Origin: a virus
Strand: one strand, 5' to 3'
Virus record (IMG/VR): IMGVR_UViG_3300042914_003100
Span: 1 to 48,093 of that record
Length of the DNA: 48,093 bases
This document shows, in pieces, positions 27,987 through 48,093 of the stretch; the first letter of the stretch is position 1; every line of letters starts with the position of its first letter. A model generated the notes under the pieces. That model made no database searches and was not told where the DNA came from. It worked only from the letters and a program-made list of their open reading frames with translations. Both the position numbers and the translations under genes were made by a program.

Positions 27987-29084
27987 ATGTCGATCGTTGT
28001 TGGCGTTCGTGAATTGAGAGATGCGTTGTCGTCGTGCATGATGGCGACAGGAAAAGACAAGGACGGATTGATATCGAACGTCCATGCAGCAGTCTCGAAC
28101 GGTTCATTGTGTTTGACTGCGACTGATAAGGACGTATCGATCAGGATTCTGCTGAACGCTGATACTTCAATCATCGGTGAGGTGATGCTGCCGGTAAAAC
28201 GGTTGTCAGCTATTCTGGCTGAAGCCACGTACGAAAAGGCGACAATCGTCGTCGATGAGAAAAATATCACTGTGAAGACTGATTCCGGAAGGTTCCGGCT
28301 CGCGACCGAAGATGCGAGAGACTTCCCGTCAGTTCCGCGATGTGAATTCGAAAACTGTCTGAAGATTCCGTCTGCCGTACTACGGAAGCTGATCCATCGG
28401 ACGGCATTCGCGACAGATGTCCAGTCAACACGTTACGCCCTGGGCGGCGTTATGTTCGAAATGGGTGAAGGCAATTTGGTGTGCGCTGCGACAGACTCGA
28501 GGAGACTCGCGGTTGCAGATGCTGCCGCCGACTTCTTCGGCAGTGAGAAGTTTAGGCCGGCGGTGATTCCGATGAAGTTGCTGAGACTTGTCGAGAAACT
28601 TCCGGAAGGTGACGTAGAGGTATCCATCGGTGACAACTCTGCATTCTTCCGGTGTGGTGGTGTGTCGTGTTCTGGCCGATTGGTTGAGGGACGATTCCCC
28701 CGATACCGTGATGTGATTCCGAAGACTGGTTCCCTGATCATCAATGTCGTCGCATCTAAGATGCTGTCAGCGGTGCGTCAGGCGATGATTGTGACCGATG
28801 AAGAAAGCCGCGGCGTCGATTTCACTATTGACGACAACGAAATGAAGCTCGCGTCCGCCGGTGCTCAGATCGGGAGTTCGGAAGTTCGTTTGGATATTGA
28901 AACCAAGACGAACAATCCGAAGTCGATCACGGTGACCATGGATCCGAAGTATGTTTCAGACATGCTGAAGGCTATTCCGGCTGAAGAGGTCGTTTCCATT
29001 TCCTTCATCGATGCGGATACGGCAGTTGTATTCCGGAACGGGGACAATTACCTGTATGTGAACATGCCGTTGTCGAGAGAGTGA
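27987..29084 (+). CDS. dnaN: DnaN-type beta sliding clamp
   Basis: 365 residues, the usual clamp length, in three repeated domains: about 1-120, 125-240 and 250-365. Signature pieces include STRYALGGVMFE, ATDSRRLAVADA, VEGRFPRYRDVIP, and the C-terminal TMDPKYVSDMLKAI ... NYLYVNMPLSRE, where the -YVNMPL-R/E end is the partner-peptide-binding edge. It tethers polymerases to DNA. A polymerase gene is not in this window, so it works with the host enzyme or one encoded elsewhere. Confidence 0.94.
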   Translation: MSIVVGVRELRDALSSCMMATGKDKDGLISNVHAAVSNGSLCLTATDKDVSIRILLNADTSIIGEVMLPVKRLSAILAEATYEKATIVVDEKNITVKTDSGRFRLATEDARDFPSVPRCEFENCLKIPSAVLRKLIHRTAFATDVQSTRYALGGVMFEMGEGNLVCAATDSRRLAVADAAADFFGSEKFRPAVIPMKLLRLVEKLPEGDVEVSIGDNSAFFRCGGVSCSGRLVEGRFPRYRDVIPKTGSLIINVVASKMLSAVRQAMIVTDEESRGVDFTIDDNEMKLASAGAQIGSSEVRLDIETKTNNPKSITVTMDPKYVSDMLKAIPAEEVVSISFIDADTAVVFRNGDNYLYVNMPLSRE

Positions 29085-32671: not shown

Positions 32672-33334
32672 ATGTGTGAGTTTACCCGATTGCGGGACCT
32701 TGCCGTCGTCGTCCGACGGCAAGGCACTCCAGAGATTGTGTCGGCAGTGATTGCAGGCAAGATTGATCTGGATCAGGCGATGTCGCTGATCAACGGTCAA
32801 TCGGCAGAAGTGGCAGCGCAGCTCAGTCTATTGGACCGGTTCCGCGTCATGTGGGAATCGGCGGCAGCGGAAGAGAGAGAAGCGGCTGGACTCGCGATCG
32901 GTGAAATGGTCGGCCTGAAGGTGGTTGCTCAGAAATCCGCTGGCGTCTTGTTCCCGGATGCAATCGAACCGCCAAAGCAGAAAGAGCGAATCGTTCCGAC
33001 TGATGAAGAGTTCGAATCGTTCTATTCAGCGTTCCCGCGTCGGGTGAATAAAGCAAAAGCAAAGCTTGCATTCAAGTCGGCGTTTGGCCGGCTGCGAAAA
33101 AAGCACGATTGCGAAGGTGCAATCCGCACAATCATGGACGGTGTTCGGGTCTATTCAGCGAAGGCTAATCCTGATGCGTTGTGTCATCCCACAACTTGGT
33201 TGAACGGTGACCGATGGGAAGACGATCCGTCTGGAATCGGAACTCAGGACAAGGCATCGCGGAGGTCAGACAATGCAATGCTTGGTGCTTACGAAGAACG
33301 TGAGAGAACCCCGCTCAGTGAGGCAGTGTTTTGA
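32672..33334 (+). CDS. replisome organiser-like protein
   Basis: 220 residues. The C-terminal third (FYSAFPRRVNKAKAKLAF ... CHPTTWLNGDRWEDD) has the phage replication-protein signature 'F...YPR...A...P..WLN..RWedd', typical of initiators or organisers paired with a DnaC-like loader. The N-terminal half is helical and acidic. It lies two genes upstream of the loader and the DnaB helicase, which fits. Confidence 0.7.
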   Translation: MCEFTRLRDLAVVVRRQGTPEIVSAVIAGKIDLDQAMSLINGQSAEVAAQLSLLDRFRVMWESAAAEEREAAGLAIGEMVGLKVVAQKSAGVLFPDAIEPPKQKERIVPTDEEFESFYSAFPRRVNKAKAKLAFKSAFGRLRKKHDCEGAIRTIMDGVRVYSAKANPDALCHPTTWLNGDRWEDDPSGIGTQDKASRRSDNAMLGAYEERERTPLSEAVF

Positions 33335-36257: not shown

Positions 36258-36791
36258 ATGGAAGATTCGCAGTTGATGGCACGTATTGCGGCTGGTGAGC
36301 ATGCTGCAATGGATGAGTTCAATACTCAATACCGAGACGTTCTCCTGAAGTTTCTGTTCAAGCGAGTGTCGCAGGAAGTTGCCGAGGACCTAAGTCAGAT
36401 TGTGCTTCTGAAGGTCTGGACAAAGGCTTCAACATTTCGCGCCGGTGCTCAGATCACCAGTTGGTTGTTCTCGATCGCAGGCCGCACGTTGATTGATCAC
36501 TTCCGAAAGGAAAGGCGATCGCTGCCGACTTGCGAACTTGAATTCGATTTTGAGGCCCGTGAGTCCTCCTATCTCAGTGAAGACGATCGGGAGTCCGTTC
36601 GCACGATTGTCGCGAAGCTTGTCGGCACGTTTTCATTTGGTGCATCCGTTGTGGATGACTTCCTGAATGAGCGATCGCATGCTGAAGCCAGTGCGCTTCG
36701 TGGCGTTACAGAAAGCACCTCCCGTTGGCGTCGGACGCAGATGATGCAGTGCCTGGCGAATTCTCCTGAACTGGCAAACGTGTTTCTCTGA
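36258..36791 (+). CDS. ECF-type RNA polymerase sigma factor
   Basis: 177 residues. Sigma region 2 is clear at about residues 20-85 (VAEDLSQIVLLKVWTKA, TSWLFSIAGRTLIDHFRK). Region 4 is more divergent but recognisable (about 130-170: SHAEASALRGVTESTSRWRR, an HTH). No anti-sigma gene is adjacent. It would direct RNA polymerase to a specific promoter, and the repeated CGTATAGGCTAC motif is the obvious candidate, although this is inference. Confidence 0.87.
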   Translation: MEDSQLMARIAAGEHAAMDEFNTQYRDVLLKFLFKRVSQEVAEDLSQIVLLKVWTKASTFRAGAQITSWLFSIAGRTLIDHFRKERRSLPTCELEFDFEARESSYLSEDDRESVRTIVAKLVGTFSFGASVVDDFLNERSHAEASALRGVTESTSRWRRTQMMQCLANSPELANVFL

Positions 36792-39156: not shown

Positions 39157-39616
39157 GGCTAAATTGTCGAGGGGGTTGGCCAATTTTCGGACCCTGAACC
39201 TAGCAGCAAAAAAAATCGTTGACGGGGTGGGGGTGTTTTCAAAAACGTGTTTGAACGAAACAGCGTTTTGAAAATGAACCCCCGAATAGGCTGGAAATTT
39301 TTTGCGCGAATTTCCCCCTGCTGGCATCTTGGCAGTTTGGCTCAACCCGCCATTTTGACCGTTTGAAAATTTCCCGAGGGTAGCCTAGGCAATCTGCCGG
39401 TTCCGGCATCGTTCCGCGTTCCCGCGGTTGCTGGCATCGCTCGCAACGTTTGGCGATAGGGTTCCCGGTTGTGCGATGTTTCAACCGTCCTGAATTCCGA
39501 GCCGTCAAACGTTGCCGTATGCGTTCCCGCGGGGTTGTGTCCGTTTTGACGGTTCCGGCATTGTTCCCGGTTGCATTCACCACCCCGAGCCGTTTCCCCG
39601 GCTCGATTCAGGCGCA

Positions 39617-39667
39617 ACAAAAAACGCGGGAACCGCAACCGGGGAAACGTTCCCGGGGGTTCCCGCG
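39617..39667 (-). terminator. minus-strand terminator with repeated sequence
   Basis: On the minus strand, CGCGGGAACC and GGTTCCCGCG (10-base arms, 39658-39667 and 39625-39634) form a stem followed by TTTTTT. Nearly the same element occurs at 39953. Confidence 0.7.
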
Positions 39668-40016
39668 TAGTGCGCGGGGTTCTGATTGTCGTCAGCTGTA
39701 GCGTTGTGGTGGTGATCAGTATTGAAGAGCAACCCCGCGCCGCGGTTTCGGTTGCCCCGGACAATGGAGAAAGCCGGGACAACGTTTGACGGTCACCACA
39801 ACCGGAAACAATACGGCGCGGGGGTTTCGATTCTATAAACGATTGCAACGCATGGAAAGCGCAGCGCAAAACGTGGGGACTGAATCAGAATTCAGAAACG
39901 ACGGGAACCGGCTCGGGGGAATCGGTTTCCGTTGTTGCTGGAATCAGGACACAAAAAAACGCGGGAACCTGTCAACCGTTTCCGGCCTAGGGTTCCCGCG
40001 TAGTGCGCGGGGGTTG
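39657..40016 (+). repeat. two-copy repeat GGGTTCCCGCGTAGTGCGCG
   Basis: GGGTTCCCGCGTAGTGCGCG occurs at 39657 and 39990, each after a CGCGGGAACC arm and followed by a similar ATTGTCG tail. Duplication of a terminator-containing unit explains it. Confidence 0.65.
39953..40000 (-). terminator. minus-strand terminator ending the array
   Basis: The same 10-base arms (39960-39969 and 39991-40000) followed on the minus strand by TTTTTTT. It lies 32 bases after the stop of the last array gene. Confidence 0.8.
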
Positions 40017-40031
40017 AATTGTCGGGATGCA

Positions 40032-40328
40032 TTATTGCCGGAATTCAATTCGCATTGTCAACAGGAAAGAACGCGAAACGACGGAAACGCAATCAGGGAC
40101 AGAATCCAGAAAGAGCCGGGACGGAATACCAGCGCGGGAAACCTCGCGCCCGAGTATTGCCGGGAATAGATCGGAATTCGTGTAATACGAAAACCGGCGA
40201 TCGGCATTGAATGAATTGAGGTTGACGCAATGCCGTTTGGCAAGCTTCGGAACGCGCACGAATTCGCGCCCCGTTGTCGGTTCGGTTTCGGTTTTCGCTT
40301 TGAATTCAACCGCGGGGGAAGTGTTCAT
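40032..40328 (-). CDS. hypothetical protein, 98 aa (array gene 10)
   Basis: Starts at ATG 40328, eleven bases after GGAGC within CAATGGAGC, the array leader. Thr/Glu-rich start (EFKAKTETEPTTGREF), basic middle. Followed directly by a strong terminator. No family recognised. Confidence 0.55.
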   Translation of the reverse strand: MNTSPAVEFKAKTETEPTTGREFVRVPKLAKRHCVNLNSFNADRRFSYYTNSDLFPAILGREVSRAGIPSRLFLDSVPDCVSVVSRSFLLTMRIEFRQ

Positions 40329-40520
40329 TGTTGTTGGTTGCTCCATTGCTCGGGGTGGTGGTGATCAGTACGACGGGAAACGCTGTAGAGGTTGCTTTAA
40401 TATATTTGCCAGTGTCGAGCCGGCGAAACCGGCTCGGGGACAATTTGACACAATCAACGGGGGCACGGGATTCAGGCAACCGGCAACGGAACCGCGCCCC
40501 GCGCTGGAGTTCTGAGAATA

Positions 40521-41012
40521 TCACGGGGAAACCTCCCGCCATACTGGAACCCCGATAGAACAATATACCCCGCGCCCCGCGCCCGCTTGTCGTAGTGAAA
40601 AAAACCAAACGCGCGCGGGTAAAATCTCGCCAGACAATTCAACGCGGCGCGATACTGAATAGTCAAGACTCCAGCAGGAGAACGACATTGATGCGGAATT
40701 GAGATAAAACCCGCCCCCGGTTCCGTTCTGTCCCGGTTGATACTCAATCAACCCGTTTTGCGTTTCTTGGTTCCAGACTTTGGCAACCCGTTCTAGTTTC
40801 CCGTCTGCGCATCGTATGAAATCCCCCGCGGAGATTTCCCCGCGTTTGGCTCGGTCCATGTTTCCCGTCTGCGCATCAAATGCAATCCCGCTATCGGTTG
40901 CGATATCCCGCGCCTGTATTGGGTGGATACTGCCGATATTGTGAAACCCGTAAACGTGCCCGTTGTTCGGCTCGGTTGTCAGGGAATGTTCTATTCTTTC
41001 TCGTGTCAACAT
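40521..41012 (-). CDS. hypothetical protein, 163 aa (array gene 9)
   Basis: ATG 41012 lies nine bases after GGAGA of the leader. Residues 20-100 look folded (GHVYGFHNIGSIHPIQARDI, then GEISAGDFIRCADGKLERVA). The last 45 residues have a different, Arg/Ser-rich character and may be translated former spacer. Unknown. Confidence 0.5.
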   Translation of the reverse strand: MLTRERIEHSLTTEPNNGHVYGFHNIGSIHPIQARDIATDSGIAFDAQTGNMDRAKRGEISAGDFIRCADGKLERVAKVWNQETQNGLIEYQPGQNGTGGGFYLNSASMSFSCWSLDYSVSRRVELSGEILPARVWFFSLRQAGAGRGVYCSIGVPVWREVSP

Positions 41013-41080
41013 TGGTTCAATTCTCCATCGCTCGGGGTGGTGGTGACCGAGCCGGGAACCGGCTCGGGGATTGTGCTGAA

Positions 41081-41623
41081 TCAGTGATCGGAAACGTTTT
41101 CGCCGTGTTGCGGTTCCCGGAAATCCGCGGGGGTGACATTGGGGATTGATACCAGCGCGTGTGAATCCTGAAATACACCGATTGCATACGCGCGAACGGT
41201 TCCGCGTTGTTCGTAGTCGTCAGTTGTGAAAAGCAACCAGGGAAACCCGTTGAAGTCAATCACGGTTTGCGTTATGCGTTCCATGCAATCGAAAGAGACA
41301 ACCGCGGAACCGTTTTCGGTTTCAACCGAGTATGCGGAATAGTGCCCGCGCTTTGGTTCCACCCGCAACACTGGGAATGTTTCCGCGTCGATATCCTGGA
41401 GAACGGCAGCGCCCCACATTGCGCGAGGTTTCCGCAACATTGACAGAACGTGAAACCCGCGGACATAGGCAATCGTTTTCGCTTTCTCGTGTTGCTCAAA
41501 CTGGATTTTCTCCAGTCGTTCGCGCTCTTTCAGTCGTTTCCGAAGTGTTGCCGGGATTGTGTCCGCGTTAGTGGCCTGGAACGTTCCCAGTGAATCAGTA
41601 ACGGTGATTGGTTCGATTTCCAT
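41081..41623 (-). CDS. hypothetical protein, 180 aa (array gene 8)
   Basis: ATG 41623, nine bases after GGAGA. A charged helix near residues 28-48 (LRKRLKERERLEKIQFEQHE) precedes a beta-rich part. The leader hairpin GGCTCGGG/CCCGAGCC with CACCA in the loop lies just upstream. No family recognised. Confidence 0.6.
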   Translation of the reverse strand: MEIEPITVTDSLGTFQATNADTIPATLRKRLKERERLEKIQFEQHEKAKTIAYVRGFHVLSMLRKPRAMWGAAVLQDIDAETFPVLRVEPKRGHYSAYSVETENGSAVVSFDCMERITQTVIDFNGFPWLLFTTDDYEQRGTVRAYAIGVFQDSHALVSIPNVTPADFREPQHGENVSDH

Positions 41624-41724
41624 GGTTCTGAATCTCCATTGCTTGCAATGGCTCGGGGTGGTGTCCCGAGCCGGGGAAAGAATCCCCGCGGAACGTTTCC
41701 GCGGGGGTGAATCGGGGTTGCTGT

Positions 41725-43752
41725 CTATCGGTTCTGCGCCAACGGCATAACAACATACTTCCCGTCGGTATCGTCGGTGAAGACAACCGCGGTTTCGGCA
41801 TCGATTAGATTCACGGTCACCGTCTCAGCTGTCGACCGTTTCAACCAGTCAACCAGATATTTCGGATCCATTGTCACCGGGGTGGATTGTTCCGCGTTTC
41901 GGTTGTCGTCAACCGAGACGACGGGGACACTAACGGTTGCTTTCCCGTACAATGAAGATTCCCCGAACAATTTGAGAGACTGCAGATAATCCGACGGGAA
42001 AACGTAGTCAACCCCGCGGGATTCTTCATCAGTCGAAAGCAATACCGTTTCGCAACCGTTTAGAAATTCGGCTCGGTCGATACTGATCACCGCGTTGAAG
42101 CTTCGGGGAATCACGTCAAGATAGCGCGGAAAACGTCCCTCAACAGGAACCCCGCGGAGAGAAAGAACGTGGGGAATCTCAAAAACGAATTCGCGCCGGA
42201 ACGTTTCACAATACCACGTTCCTGAATCATCTTGAACGTTCCGTTGTTTGTCCGTTTCTTTCGGCGCGGGGGGTGTCCAGGGTTCCGCGGGTTTCGCTTT
42301 GGTTCGCGTTCTGACAACCGGCTCGGGTGGTGGTGTCAATTTCTGACGATTGAAGACAACGTTAGAAACCGCAAACGATACTGGCAAGGAACCCAGGCGC
42401 TTCAATTCATCGGCTAACAATTGCAAGCTTCTCAGAGGAATTGTCGCCCCCGTTTTGTGGTACGTTTCCCCACGTTCCAACGTCGGGAGGTGTCCGCAGA
42501 CAACCCCGTTGATTGTTTGAACCGACAACCGTCGGGAATCAGTCCCGGCAATATCGAAAGCGCCTAGGGTTGCGTTTGGAGAAAAGAACAATCCCCCGAG
42601 CGCGTACCGGCTCGATTCTGTATCCGTTGCGAATTCAGTTAAACGGATTGCTTTGAGTAATTCGTCGGCCTGGAATTCGTGCGCGTAGGTTGCCGGGAAT
42701 TCGCTTTGGAATTGTTCCCGATCGGCAACAACGGAAGCCGGCAAAGTGAATTCATTTTTCCCGGCTCGGATTATCAAAGCGAATTCGTTTAACGGTTCGC
42801 AAGTGATCAATTCCACGTCAACGGTATCACTTTTGACCTTGGAGCAAATTTCGGAAAGCTTCACTTCGTTGATTGTTGCGGATGCATTCCCGGACGTTTG
42901 CCACGAACTGCCGACGGTTAAACACAAACGGGAATCAGAATCAGCGCAAACGATATCGACCGAGCCGGAACCAATTGAGAGAACAACGGTTTTCCCCACG
43001 TTGCGAGCGCCCCCGAATTTTTTCGCTGTCTTCAAAGTGTTCAGAAGACAAACGCGGGGAATAGATGCCTTGCCCCGTTGCCGGTTCCGTTCTCTGAATA
43101 CTGATTCAGCGCGCGCCGCGTTCTGAACAGTCTGAAAATCGGTTCCGGTTCTTTCTTCGTGTTGAACCGTCAACCCGCAAACGGTTTCCAGATAGTAGAG
43201 AACCGCCGCGGGTTTCCATTTTGCGGGGTTGCTTGTGAAGTCAAACCCGTCATATTCGTTGACGGGAACCGGCTCGGGAACAACGGGAACCGAAACCGGT
43301 TCCGGCTCGGTTGCGGTGGTGTCCCCCACGTGGGACACAATGACGGGGTTCCGCGGTTGCGGTTCCGGCATGGTGACCGGCTCGGGTTTCGGCTCGGGTG
43401 ACCAGAAAGCGCGGTTGCTTTCGAATTCGTTAGCGGGGATTGTGGCATGCATGCCGGAACCGTTTCGACCGTATTGCCAATTGGTATGAATATCAAAAAT
43501 CTGAATCAGTCTCCAGGTTTTCCCGTTTGAATTCTTTCCACAATCGGGGGTAATCGTTTTCGTCCCGAAACCGTCATAAGCTTCCGGCGCGGTGGTGTAA
43601 TAAAAAGAGCAACCAGGCGCGGGAACCGGCTCGGGAGGTTTCCCCGTTGTCAGGGTTTCAATTCGCCCCCCACCATAATTCAGGCGAAACGTTACGGTTT
43701 CGCGTTCTGTCTTTGGTGTCCGCATATCGTTAGCGCGTGCAATCGTCAACAT
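41725..43752 (-). CDS. giant beta-clamp homologue with N-terminal extension
   Basis: 675 residues, almost twice a normal clamp. Clamp domain 1 begins near residue 255 (ARNVGKTVVLSIGSGSVDIV); domain 2 near 365 (SSRYALGGLFFSPN, AGTDSRRLSVQ); domain 3 near 555 (STDEESRGVDYVF, TPVTMDPKYLVDWL, KYVVMPLAQNR). These match the 365-residue clamp at 28 kb. About 250 N-terminal residues with PEP-rich linkers (about 115-180) have no known family, and about 60 residues are inserted between domains 2 and 3 (PPPEPVVRTRTKAKPAEP). Start ATG 43752, nine bases after GGAGA. Confidence 0.85.
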   Translation of the reverse strand: MLTIARANDMRTPKTERETVTFRLNYGGGRIETLTTGKPPEPVPAPGCSFYYTTAPEAYDGFGTKTITPDCGKNSNGKTWRLIQIFDIHTNWQYGRNGSGMHATIPANEFESNRAFWSPEPKPEPVTMPEPQPRNPVIVSHVGDTTATEPEPVSVPVVPEPVPVNEYDGFDFTSNPAKWKPAAVLYYLETVCGLTVQHEERTGTDFQTVQNAARAESVFRERNRQRGKASIPRVCLLNTLKTAKKFGGARNVGKTVVLSIGSGSVDIVCADSDSRLCLTVGSSWQTSGNASATINEVKLSEICSKVKSDTVDVELITCEPLNEFALIIRAGKNEFTLPASVVADREQFQSEFPATYAHEFQADELLKAIRLTEFATDTESSRYALGGLFFSPNATLGAFDIAGTDSRRLSVQTINGVVCGHLPTLERGETYHKTGATIPLRSLQLLADELKRLGSLPVSFAVSNVVFNRQKLTPPPEPVVRTRTKAKPAEPWTPPAPKETDKQRNVQDDSGTWYCETFRREFVFEIPHVLSLRGVPVEGRFPRYLDVIPRSFNAVISIDRAEFLNGCETVLLSTDEESRGVDYVFPSDYLQSLKLFGESSLYGKATVSVPVVSVDDNRNAEQSTPVTMDPKYLVDWLKRSTAETVTVNLIDAETAVVFTDDTDGKYVVMPLAQNR

Positions 43753-43842
43753 GGTCGAAAATCTCCATTGTGAAAAACAGCGTTTTGGCTCGGGTGGTGA
43801 CCGAGCCGGAAAGAATTCTGGGAAACGTTCCCGGGGTGGTGT

Positions 43843-44193
43843 CTACTCTTTTGCGTCGGGGAACATTAAATAGAAATGCACTTCAAACAATTCGTCCGGC
43901 CATGGCTGGATGAATTCGCCCCTATAATCAATTTGAATCATGCGTTCCGTCGGAACGTGGAAAACGTTTGTGCAATCAATCTCCCTGCGCTTGTGAAGTA
44001 GGAAAAACGCCAAACAAACGGAACCGGAATTGGTTGAAAACGTCTGCGCGTCCGGGTTAGTCTGAAGAGCAACCCGGACGAATTCGACAACCGATTCAGC
44101 TGTCGGAAGATAGCCAAACGGTTTCACGTCAACACAATCGCGCGGGGTTTCTGAATCACCTACGCGCAAAACAATTGAACGGGGGAATACCAT
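43843..44193 (-). CDS. hypothetical protein, 116 aa (array gene 6)
   Basis: ATG 44193 lies ten bases after GGAAA in CAATGGAAA, a variant leader; the longer frame from 44235 lacks one. Alpha/beta composition ending FEVHFYLMFPDAKE. Unknown. Confidence 0.55.
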   Translation of the reverse strand: MVFPRSIVLRVGDSETPRDCVDVKPFGYLPTAESVVEFVRVALQTNPDAQTFSTNSGSVCLAFFLLHKRREIDCTNVFHVPTERMIQIDYRGEFIQPWPDELFEVHFYLMFPDAKE

Positions 44194-44231
44194 TGTTGAA
44201 AGCTTTCCATTGTTGGGGGTGGTGGTGGTAA

Positions 44232-44651
44232 TCAAAGCGCGTTCAAAACGTCTCGCCAGTATTCAACATTGAAACCGTTTCCGATTTCGCGTTCCGCCAT
44301 GGCTCGCAATTCGTGCGCGTCAAGATGCAATTCGTTGACGGCGTTGACGTCAACCGGCTCGGGTGGAATCAGGAAGTGAATACCGGGGACACCATAACAG
44401 GAAGATTCACCCCCGTTTGGATTCACCCCGTTATAGGCAATACAACAATTCCCCAGGCCGAAACCGTCGTCCTGATTCCACCATTGGCGCCCCTTATACC
44501 ATTCCCCGCAACAACAACATTCGAGCCATTGTATAGGCTTTTCGCGTTCTGCTTTGTAATCATCGGCGCGGGTTGCAATCGCAACACGTTCCAGACGGTT
44601 CAACATTTCCTGCGCTTGCTCGGTTGTGGTGATAATCGTTAGCCTGGACAT
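44232..44651 (-). CDS. hypothetical cysteine-rich protein, 139 aa (array gene 5)
   Basis: ATG 44651 follows GAGAAAG; the frame extends upstream but without a site. LECCCCGEWYKGRQWW with GNCCIAY some 20 residues on gives six cysteines, a likely metal site. An in-frame IPPEPVDVN linker near residue 95 carries the array's CCCGAGCCGG DNA. Unknown. Confidence 0.55.
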   Translation of the reverse strand: MSRLTIITTTEQAQEMLNRLERVAIATRADDYKAEREKPIQWLECCCCGEWYKGRQWWNQDDGFGLGNCCIAYNGVNPNGGESSCYGVPGIHFLIPPEPVDVNAVNELHLDAHELRAMAEREIGNGFNVEYWRDVLNAL

Positions 44652-44688
44652 TGTGAAAAGCTTTCTCAATTCGTGGTGGTGGTGAGTC

Positions 44689-44994
44689 TCAAAGGGCGCG
44701 GAATTCTCGCAACGTCGCAAGCCTGGTCCCGTATTCCTTGCCGATCTGAAAGAACGCACGATAGACCGGCCTATCCGCGGCGTCGTGGTAGGCAATTTCA
44801 CCTACTAAAAACCGATCTGAGGACAACGCAACGGGAGGAACACAACCCAACATTTCCTCGAACATGTTCGCAGTTGTTCTAATCAACCGCGGTTCCCGTT
44901 TCTCTTTCAATGCTGCGCGGTTCTCAGTCTCTACAGCGTTCCACAATTCAGACCATTCGAGCGGGGTTATGTGATCGGGGTGAAAATCCAACAT
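44689..44994 (-). CDS. hypothetical protein, 101 aa (array gene 4)
   Basis: ATG 44994 is nine bases after GGAGA of the leader at 45004. Helical, charged first half, FEEMLGCVPPVALSSDRF in the middle. No family recognised. Confidence 0.55.
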   Translation of the reverse strand: MLDFHPDHITPLEWSELWNAVETENRAALKEKREPRLIRTTANMFEEMLGCVPPVALSSDRFLVGEIAYHDAADRPVYRAFFQIGKEYGTRLATLREFRAL

Positions 44995-45031
44995 TGTCAA
45001 CGTTCTCCATTATCGGGGGTTGTGGTGATTC

Positions 45032-45078
45032 CCCGAGCCGATCGGCTCGGGTTGCTGAATAGTCTGCAGACTGTTCAG
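45032..45078 (+). promoter_or_regulatory. two adjacent palindromes
   Basis: CCCGAGCCGATCGGCTCGGG at 45032-45051 is a perfect 20-base palindrome. A second, 24-base palindrome (45055-45078) centres on AGTCTGCAGACT with arms CTGAA and TTCAG. They lie in a 222-base gap and may be a terminator plus an operator. Confidence 0.5.
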
Positions 45079-45216
45079 GATTCTGGCTTGTTTGCGTTTA
45101 ACCCGCCCAAACAACTCCAGGAAAGAAAACGGGCAACGGGGTTGATTCTGTCACAATCGAAACCGCGCGAGTCTATGCCGGGATTTTGCCGGCATAGTGT
45201 CCCGAGGTTTCAATTG

Positions 45217-45462
45217 TCAGGATTCAAGACCGCCCCGAATTCCGAGCGGACCGAAACCGTTTTCGGCTCGGATAAAATTTGCAATGAAAAGGGAAGCTTC
45301 TTCGTGTGTATCGCATAGCCTGGTATCTGTGCGCGTTCCGACGAACACCACCGCATTAAATTTGCCGTTGAGTTCTGTAATGCTGTGCGTTGTCAAGTGT
45401 TCGCCGACGGGGTTGACGTGATCACGTTTCGCCCGAATATGCGAGAATGAATTTTTCGGCAT
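45217..45462 (-). CDS. hypothetical protein, 81 aa (array gene 3b)
   Basis: ATG 45462 (MPKNSFSHIRAKRDHVN) has only a weak GAGG upstream and lacks the CAATGGAGA leader; its distance from neighbours is larger than in the rest of the array. HLTTHSITELNGKFNAVVF is its core. Unknown. Confidence 0.45.
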   Translation of the reverse strand: MPKNSFSHIRAKRDHVNPVGEHLTTHSITELNGKFNAVVFVGTRTDTRLCDTHEEASLFIANFIRAENGFGPLGIRGGLES

Positions 45463-45539
45463 TGTGTGAAACCTCAAAAGAGTGATCAGGACGGGAAAGA
45501 ATCCCCGAGCCAAAACCGGCTCGGGGTGGTGATCGCAGC

Positions 45540-46967
45540 CTATACTGCTGACGCGAAAACGCTTTTCAGTTCTGCCTCGGTGATCGTACGCGCTGCGCTG
45601 AAAACGTTGTCCCAACGTGCCGCACTCCAGAGCATAGCGGAACCGGCCGCGCGTTCCGTCAATTCTTGCAACCCAGGGGAAAACGTCTGCGCCGCATGCG
45701 TCAACCCTTGCAAGATATCGAAAGCAGAAACCGCCCCCGGTTCGGTTCGCTGGTTGTCGAAGCTTCTCACGAATTCGTCTCCAGCGTTTCGAGTGATGCC
45801 AGGGATATTGAGAGAACGCAACACGGAACCGATAGCGGGAATCGGGGAAACGTCTGAAGTGATTCCCCGCGTTTTCAACATGTTGTCTATGCCGTTGTCC
45901 AGTAAAGGAATTTGACGGTTCAAATTGTCCCGGATGACGAACATTAGCGCGCTCAAGTCAATCGTGCCGCGGTGTATCTTCTCAATGATGCCGGTTCCCT
46001 TCACTTCGTCCCATATGCAACCGTTTCGGCATATGGCGCGAAAAATACTAGGACAGGTTGAAAGCTTGCGGGAACCGGTTTCCCCGTTTCCAAACGCCAA
46101 CATTCCACCGTAATCGGAATCGGTTTCGGCCCGCATGCTATCCGGAATCAGGATATTGCCGAAAATAGAATCGCAACCGTCGGGGGAACGAAAATGTGAG
46201 ACTAACCCGTCTGGAATGAGACGGCGCAACACTTCAAGGAACCAACGATTGTCAAGAATCGCATATTGTTCACTGAGAACAGCGCGCAGGGTTCCGTCAT
46301 TGCGCAACCGAATGAGGTTTTTCTTTTCTGCAATCTTGCGCAACCCGTTGCGGAAAACGTTTACCAGCGTTTCTCGGTCCGCATGGTCACCGTTGAGAAG
46401 CTTGCGCGGCAGAACTAGGCCGGAATCAGTCCACTTTGCAAACTGATCGAGCGAGGTTTCGTTGAACACCAAACGGCGCCCAGTTTCGTCAATCAACCCG
46501 ATTCCGTCGGCATCGTTGACAATTTGAAGCTTTCCGAATTCGGAACGCATATCGACCGTGTTGCCGCGTTCACGTTCAAGATGTTCGAAAGCCTGGTCCC
46601 AAGTCATCACGGAAGTATCGTCGGGATCGTTCGCGCGTTTGGTCCACCCCTCGGAAACGTTCCGGAAATTCTTATCCATCGTTTGCGTATTGTGGACGAA
46701 GTCACCCGAGCGAGTAACACCCCGCAACGGTTGCAACGTTTCGATTCCCGGGTATTCATTGAAAACCGGTTCCACAACAACGGGAGGAACCACAACAACG
46801 GACCGAGCCGGGGGAACGACAACAACGGGGGGAACCGTTGCGGGTAATTGTTTGGAAACGATATCGACAACCGCAACCGGCTCGGGAGTGATTACAACCG
46901 GTTGCGCGGTGGTGACCGGCTCGGTTGTGGTTGCTGGTTTCGCTGTCTTCAGATGCGCTAGAAACAT
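45540..46967 (-). CDS. DUF932-like protein
   Basis: 475 residues. ATG 46967 is chosen because GGAGA lies nine bases upstream, as in its neighbours; ATG 46976 touches the site. An N-terminal linker (about 10-75) is rich in Pro, Val and Thr (VVVVPPARSVVVVPP). The folded part, with RNDGTLRAVLSEQYAILDN near residue 265 and MLAFGNGETGSRKLS near 330, resembles the DUF932 family common on plasmids and phages, whose function is unknown. The stop TAG lies in GTATAGGCT. Confidence 0.6.
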   Translation of the reverse strand: MFLAHLKTAKPATTTEPVTTAQPVVITPEPVAVVDIVSKQLPATVPPVVVVPPARSVVVVPPVVVEPVFNEYPGIETLQPLRGVTRSGDFVHNTQTMDKNFRNVSEGWTKRANDPDDTSVMTWDQAFEHLERERGNTVDMRSEFGKLQIVNDADGIGLIDETGRRLVFNETSLDQFAKWTDSGLVLPRKLLNGDHADRETLVNVFRNGLRKIAEKKNLIRLRNDGTLRAVLSEQYAILDNRWFLEVLRRLIPDGLVSHFRSPDGCDSIFGNILIPDSMRAETDSDYGGMLAFGNGETGSRKLSTCPSIFRAICRNGCIWDEVKGTGIIEKIHRGTIDLSALMFVIRDNLNRQIPLLDNGIDNMLKTRGITSDVSPIPAIGSVLRSLNIPGITRNAGDEFVRSFDNQRTEPGAVSAFDILQGLTHAAQTFSPGLQELTERAAGSAMLWSAARWDNVFSAARTITEAELKSVFASAV

Positions 46968-47091
46968 AATGAACATTCTCCATTGTAGAAATTGTGACCG
47001 GCTCGGGTGGTGACCGAAACCGGAAAGAATCCCGCGGGAAACAATCCCGCGGGGTTGTCGGCTCGGAAACGTTCCGAGCCAGTGAAATAGC

Positions 47092-47283
47092 CTATACTTC
47101 GACCGATTGCCAGGGGTTGCGGTTGACGCATACTGTCGACAACCGATAACGCAACTCGTCAACAATAACGCGAACCGGTTCGGCTCGGTCCATGGTTTCT
47201 GGTGGCATGCCGGAAACGCGAAGAAACGCCAATCGTTCCGCGGTTGCGCGTTCCCGTTCAATTGTGGTGATCGTTTTGAACAT
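47092..47283 (-). CDS. hypothetical protein, 63 aa (array gene 2)
   Basis: ATG 47283 lies eleven bases after GGAGC of the leader; ATG 47301 lies inside the leader itself. Arg/Glu-rich helix then VIVDELRYRLSTVCV. The stop codon is embedded in GTATAGGCTATT. Unknown. Confidence 0.55.
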   Translation of the reverse strand: MFKTITTIERERATAERLAFLRVSGMPPETMDRAEPVRVIVDELRYRLSTVCVNRNPWQSVEV

Positions 47284-47344
47284 GGTTCCGTGTTGCTCCA
47301 TTGTTGAGGGTTGTGGCTCGGGTGGTGACTGAGCCGGAAATGAT

Positions 47345-47551
47345 TCAGGATTCCTGCGATTCTTTTGCTACGTTGATTGCATCGTTGACACGAGAAACCA
47401 GCGTTTTCGCTGATGACAGCATTTCGCGCAGGTTTGCGAAATAATCGGAAACCGTTTCGCACGATTCAGCTGAACTCAGGTGATCACGTAGGGTTTCCAA
47501 TTCGTCCCGGATTTCATCCAGGTTTTCAGATTGCATATCTTCCATGTTCAT
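47345..47551 (-). CDS. small helical protein, 68 aa (array gene 1)
   Basis: ATG 47551 is nine bases after GGAGA. Entirely helical and acidic (LDEIRDELETLRDHLSSAES, later REMLSSAKTLVSRVND), probably a coiled coil. First gene of the minus-strand array. Unknown. Confidence 0.6.
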   Translation of the reverse strand: MNMEDMQSENLDEIRDELETLRDHLSSAESCETVSDYFANLREMLSSAKTLVSRVNDAINVAKESQES

Positions 47552-47621
47552 TGGTTGCGTTCTCCATTGTCTAGGGTTGCGGGAACCGGCTCGGGTGGTG
47601 TCCGGCTCGGGATACGGGCAG

Positions 47622-47633
47622 GGTATAGGCTAC
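47622..47633 (+). promoter_or_regulatory. GGTATAGGCTAC promoter-like motif pointing right
   Basis: One mismatch to the consensus. It points away from the array and into the repeat region at the window end. Confidence 0.4.
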
Positions 47634-47688
47634 ATCGGCGCGCGTCAATAGGTTGAAACAATAAAAAAACTATTTCCGAAACAATCCA

Positions 47689-48039
47689 CCCAATAGACCG
47701 AGCAACCGCCCCGCAAGACAACCCCGCGCCACCGGTCACCCCGTCCCCGGCTCGCATCATCCCACAATAGACCAGCGCCCCCACCTATGCCCCGCGCCTG
47801 CAATGGTCACCGTGTCACCGTATGCCCCGAGCCAATCAACCCGCGTCCCCGTTGTTGGGTGGTGGTGGTGATAGAAGAGAGAGAGAAGACAACCAATAGA
47901 CCGAGACGCGCAGCGTCCGGGGGAATAGACAATAGGAACCAGGTCAACCAATAGACCAGAGGAACCGCCTCGCATGCAATCGAGCAACCCAATAGACCCA
48001 CCCCGAGCCAATAGCCCCGACGGTCACCCAATAGGCCCA
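47689..48039. repeat. iteron-like CCAATAGACC repeats
   Basis: Eight copies of a CCAATAGACC-type core (variants CACAATAGACC, GGAATAGAC, CCAATAGCCC, CCAATAGGCC) near 47690, 47764, 47892, 47923, 47947, 47988, 48007 and 48028. Spacing is irregular at first and about 20-40 bases at the end. No credible gene covers the region. It may be an origin (iterons) or a partition site. Confidence 0.5.
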
Positions 48040-48093
48040 AAACCGACTACGGGTCCTTCCGTTCAGTAGGGTGGGACCTGCGCGGGCGGCGTC

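Follow-up and report, generated by a model that had tools for sequence, protein, structure and literature searches.

A second, tailed beta sliding clamp encoded near a DUF932-like gene in three phages

The DNA analysed here, called the window, is the whole of the viral record IMGVR_UViG_3300042914_003100 (48,093 bases) and encodes two beta sliding clamps. The larger one, a protein of 675 residues, is a genuine second clamp. It has a predicted clamp fold, an intact cleft and a conserved position downstream of a DUF932-like gene, and it co-exists with a clamp of ordinary size. Because the same clamp adjoins the same DUF932-like gene in two other phages, we regard it as real and conserved, and as a ring protein with a probably specialised role, and not as a peculiarity of a single genome. 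That it recruits proteins via the usual cleft and works together with the neighbouring DUF932-like protein is a reading to which we give an even chance.

Sliding clamps serve as shared platforms, and phages that encode a clamp usually encode just one. One-clamp phages are known already. To judge from open-access papers, no conserved second clamp that has a tail and a neighbour of its own has been described; in this literature, with most subscription journals outside its scope, we found no report of a phage with two sliding clamps. With its intact cleft, tail and constant neighbour, such a protein offers a way to learn how clamp tasks are divided within a phage. It also links the DUF932-like proteins, which are uncharacterised, with a ring that may sit on DNA, a connection that is testable with two purified proteins.

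Architecture, relatives and neighbourhood of the second clamp

The open reading frame of the large clamp starts with ATG on the minus strand and spans exactly positions 41725-43752, as the initial annotation had given it. The domain anatomy was obtained from an alignment with host clamps, phage clamps and E. coli DnaN, in agreement with Pfam and with an AlphaFold2 model built from 81 sequences. In this model residues ~225-675 mostly have a pLDDT above 90 and form a complete three-domain clamp. Domain 1 comprises residues ~227-345 (42718..43074, minus strand as for all parts of the gene), domain 2 residues ~346-540 (42133..42717) and domain 3 residues ~541-675 (41728..42132). Pfam placed DNA_pol3_beta domains 1-3 at residues 230-343, 361-415 and 547-671, of which the third alone exceeded the gathering score. 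A Foldseek search against the PDB returned hundreds of matches, and the best ones listed were all beta clamps with E-values down to 4e-28. The good alignments, including those to the E. coli and Pseudomonas clamps, had TMt values of 0.81-0.86. According to the predicted model the protein is thus structurally a beta clamp. Since it scores 93.3 bits against the curated dnaN equivalog TIGR00663, under the cut-off of 137.65, we do not name it DnaN; its homologue in the phage L164 also stays below with 104.4 bits.

The initial annotation had placed an insert of about 60 residues between domains 2 and 3. An insert is indeed present, but it measures about 50 residues (~467-518; 42199..42354) and is part of domain 2, where it sits in the hairpin that precedes the RG...EGRFPRY strand. 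It starts with a copy of the repeat ACCACCACCCGAGCCGGTT. According to the alignments the insert is shorter in one of the two related clamps (L164) and little or not present in the other (L219).

Large-type clamps are known from three phages, the window, L164 and L219. Searches of viral contigs that used one clamp at a time, or an alignment of both window clamps, were empty because the chosen peptides were not conserved, while alignments that included host clamps gave matches. Alignments of the large clamp and of the DUF932-like protein as queries recovered the L164 pair and added L219 and a further contig, L220. L164 (IMGVR_UViG_3300020219_000016, 71.9 kb) encodes a large clamp of 624 residues whose alignment with the window protein begins at the same start and covers the full length (36% identity, E=2e-118). 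It also encodes an ordinary clamp, and the gene order of its replication block is broadly like that of the window. L219 (IMGVR_UViG_3300035703_000404) is a 24 kb contig with terminase, portal and capsid genes and a large clamp of 493 residues. In the window, which is probably a fragment, none of these three genes was seen among the proteins scanned (part of its open reading frames). A frame artefact or a pseudogene, the latter being one of the outcomes that would have overturned the initial annotation, disagrees with the full-length alignment of the 624-residue homologue and with the differences by codon position: in most of the clamp part, codon positions 1 and 2 are conserved over position 3 between the window and L164.

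Large and ordinary clamps occur together in both contigs that are long enough to judge (window and L164). Ordinary-size clamps that have no comparable tail occur at about 80 phage loci. In 41 other planctophage records with a clamp, of which many are fragments, a second clamp was never seen. This upholds the earlier remark that two clamps in one phage are unusual.

The upstream neighbour of the large clamp is a DUF932-like protein of 475 residues (45540..46967, minus strand) that starts with MFLAHLK and was assigned from PHROG 1362/1221 and from its relatives. In both L164 and L219 its gene directly precedes that of the large clamp; a few small genes separate the two in the window, and the L220 contig stops within the DUF932-like gene. 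Identity to the window protein is 63% for L164 and 56% for L219 (best segment). The name is a loose label, since the Pfam family DUF932 (PF06067) scores 13 bits, below its gathering threshold of 23, while the match to PHROG 1362 is significant (E=1.2e-6). We noticed nothing on the function of DUF932 in the open-access literature, and the patterns searched gave no clamp-binding motif in the protein. Its N-terminus MFLAHL[KQ] is invariant in the window, L164, L219 and L220 and is followed by a P/V-rich linker and then by the conserved domain. This N-terminus is possibly a docking peptide.

The ordinary clamp of the window (365 residues; 27987..29084, plus strand) belongs to the replication block. 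It was identified from its reading frame, by Pfam and by TIGR00663, which it passes with 188.6 bits, and it is 43% identical to its L164 counterpart. PHROG 947 matches both window clamps, which share 30% identity in BLASTP (E=1e-30). The motifs SxRYALGG, TDSRRL, GRFPRY, DEESRGVD and VTMDPKY, from which the initial annotation had concluded that the two are paralogues, were each found in both proteins. The conclusion itself was not supported as stated: host clamps of Planctomycetota generally carry these motifs too, so that sharing them is no evidence for a duplication inside the phage, and a tree places the two proteins apart. With 100/100 support, the three large clamps share a clade of their own on a long stem, and the two ordinary clamps (window and L164) form a separate clade among Planctomycetota host clamps. 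Trees constrained to unite the large with the ordinary clamps are worse by 7.7 and 12.4 log units (p-AU 0.152 and 0.121), such that a joint grouping is not rejected. A recent duplication within the phage finds no support in these sequence comparisons but may still have occurred. When the two window clamps were aligned and used as query, the matched host clamps were almost all from Planctomycetota, which suggests hosts in this phylum.

Functional residues, N-terminal tail and repeats

To evaluate the functional surfaces we used the known roles of the E. coli clamp residues (cleft, interface, DNA-facing). At the cleft, all 19 positions are identical or conservatively changed with respect to ordinary and host clamps (E. 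coli was also compared) in all three large clamps. The intact cleft therefore argues, at the level of sequence, that the large clamps still bind clients through it. At the dimer interface F106, L108 and E276 are kept and I78 is kept or replaced by V, whereas L273 is changed to S, A or V and E298 to L, N or S; host clamps vary at many such positions. The DNA-facing helices have net charges of 0, +1 and +6 in the large clamps, with L219 holding the +6, compared to +8 and +7 in the ordinary pair, +2 to +6 in hosts and -1 to +7 in other phages. Inner charge is not consistently lost among the large clamps, and with +6 in L219 we rejected loss of DNA binding as a feature of the whole group.

The initial annotation had described an unknown N-terminal module of about 250 residues and called the protein a fusion. 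The extra N-terminus is real and comprises about 226 residues, but we could not recognise a folded domain in it. Its first 36 residues (43645..43752) form a conserved block, MLxIARxN..K.ERETVxxRLNYGGGRxxxLT, as seen from the alignment of the window with L164 and from the codon positions. Differences at codon positions 1, 2 and 3 are 0.24, 0.12 and 0.62, which makes it the most constrained stretch between the two genes. The block was undetectable in L219. Residues 37-165 (43258..43644) are variable, end in a P/E/V-rich linker and are predicted to be disordered, and the linker is conserved at no codon position. Residues 166-226 (43075..43257) contain a short helical segment, SNPAxWKxxxVxYYLETVC, that is kept in L164; the predicted helices 181-190 and 206-223 run into domain 1.

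In the full-length model residues 1-164 have a pLDDT below 50, and the tail is predicted to be mostly disordered. Folding the N-terminal part alone, as had been proposed, gave a pLDDT of 37.6 from two sequences only, a low score that is uninformative on folding and does not prove disorder. The tail has no match in Pfam, PHROG or PDB sequences. A search of 392 Planctomycetota genomes, carried out without a positive control, found relatives of neither the tail nor the DUF932-like protein. A folded N-terminal domain is thus unsupported by the tail folding, by these databases and by the comparison with L219, and the term fusion was dropped; with two sequences only, a small novel domain is possible.

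Part of the tail appears to originate from a local DNA repeat. The 10-mer CCCGAGCCGG has 14 copies in the window, all within the last 8.9 kb (39200-48093) and 13 of them on the minus strand. Its GAGCCGG core lies in frame in the large clamp and in the DUF932-like gene, such that the repeat appears as PEPV in two proteins, and it is also found in intergenic hairpins. Because core copies lie in frame and the domain-2 insert starts with one, we interpret the proline-rich parts most readily as spacers brought in by the repeat, and the lack of conservation of the linker at all codon positions is consistent with this. The intergenic hairpin repeat of L164 is a different one, with a length of 55 nt and 4 copies.

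A hairpin GGCTCGG-TCACCAC-CCGAGCC lies just upstream of the ribosome site of the large clamp (43787..43807, minus strand). CACCAC was found within 75 nt of the start in 11 of the 11 leaders examined in the minus-strand block 40327-47551, compared to a background of 0.064 for an interval of this kind and to 3 of 31 plus-strand leaders. It often forms the loop of a GC hairpin, as in CCGGTT-TCACCAC-AACCGG (DUF932-like gene of L220) and GTGTTGC-CACCACTC-GCAACAC (clamp of L164). Across the window, L220 and L164 the stems differ while the loop is the same, and the element looks like an RNA regulatory element. Repeated CTATTGG units (family D7) occupy 47670-48020, where the contig ends, and lie upstream of the block of minus-strand genes; this region could be an origin or promoter. 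Among the other genes, a small sigma-70/ECF-like factor is conserved in both phages (window 36258-36791, L164 12222-12920). A protein of 220 residues (32672-33334) contains a canonical-looking clamp-binding motif, QLSLL, that is not kept in the L164 homologue.

Possible roles of the second clamp

In our preferred reading the large clamp would encircle DNA as a dimer, after loading at breaks or by the loader of the host, and would add to the ordinary clamp without replacing it. It would act as a specialised mobile platform with clients docking at the cleft. The flexible N-terminal leash, of which the first ~36 residues are best conserved, may tether a further partner near the ring, and the likeliest dedicated partner would be the neighbouring DUF932-like protein. 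The local DNA repeat would have spread the proline-rich linkers and a large part of the insert in domain 2 as dispensable spacers. Against this reading we counted the changes at L273 and E298 and the low inner charge in two of the three large clamps, a charge that is equally low in several other phage clamps. We also counted the negative motif search in the DUF932-like protein, the N-terminal block undetected in L219, and the small set of three members, with many contigs being partial. A wider picture, which we consider doubtful, is a lineage of phages with two clamps, of which one would serve replication. The other, a dedicated ring to which a docking peptide is tethered, would transport the DUF932-like protein along DNA, or else a factor of transcription or recombination. 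No phage precedent for such a division of labour between clamps was found in the open-access literature.

The changed interface residues could alternatively reflect a mixed ring, in which the large clamp pairs with the ordinary clamp of the phage or with the host clamp to give a heterodimer whose two faces would differ, one being ordinary and the other adapted. The ordinary clamp is present in both long contigs, and L273 and E298 are changed while F106, I78 (or V) and L108 are kept. However, the two clamp genes lie in separate blocks on opposite strands, and host clamps vary at many of these positions as well. We consider the mixed ring unlikely. The same interface changes, together with the intact cleft and the DNA-facing helices low in positive charge in two of three members, would also fit a decoy or inhibitor that is inactive on DNA and captures either the host clamp or host proteins that bind clamps. 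We hold this to be rather improbable, as L219 retains its charge of +6, several ordinary-size phage clamps are equally low and there is no sign of anti-host timing. The initial annotation had offered a decoy, a loader-independent ring and an anchor for another activity as conceivable roles. Of these, a decoy whose cleft no longer works is disfavoured, since the cleft is conserved in three phages.

A clamp that couples to transcription, similar to gp45 in T4 late transcription (PMC7892883, PMC2988020), would work with the phage's own sigma factor. The small sigma-70/ECF-like factor at 36258-36791, also found in L164, and the CACCAC leader element common to all genes examined in the block of the large clamp speak for it, but the sigma factor contains no clamp-binding motif of the searched form, and we give this explanation little weight. 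For a degenerate relic of a duplicated clamp gene one could cite the low family scores (93 bits vs 138 for NCBIfam dnaN) and the repeat-derived linkers. A frame open over 2 kb, a conserved start, constraint relative to two other phages and a conserved cleft make this a very remote prospect.

Comparison with known clamps

With bacterial DnaN the large clamp shares the three-domain fold, the cleft residues and the motifs of Planctomycetota clamps. It differs by its long tail, the domain-2 insert, the dnaN score below the cut-off, the changed interface residues and, in two of three members, a low inner charge. The ordinary clamps of planctophages fall in the same PHROG (947), whereas they have ordinary size and no comparable tail. 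A long regulatory tail is known from RAD9. The eukaryotic 9-1-1 checkpoint clamp is a specialised clamp that exists alongside PCNA (PMC10937111). The likeness is an analogy only, as 9-1-1 is a trimer of three proteins with a C-terminal tail and a checkpoint role. Among phages, T4 gp45 provides an example of a clamp that serves late transcription beyond replication (PMC7892883). In T4, however, the single replicative clamp does both jobs, whereas here two clamps are present.
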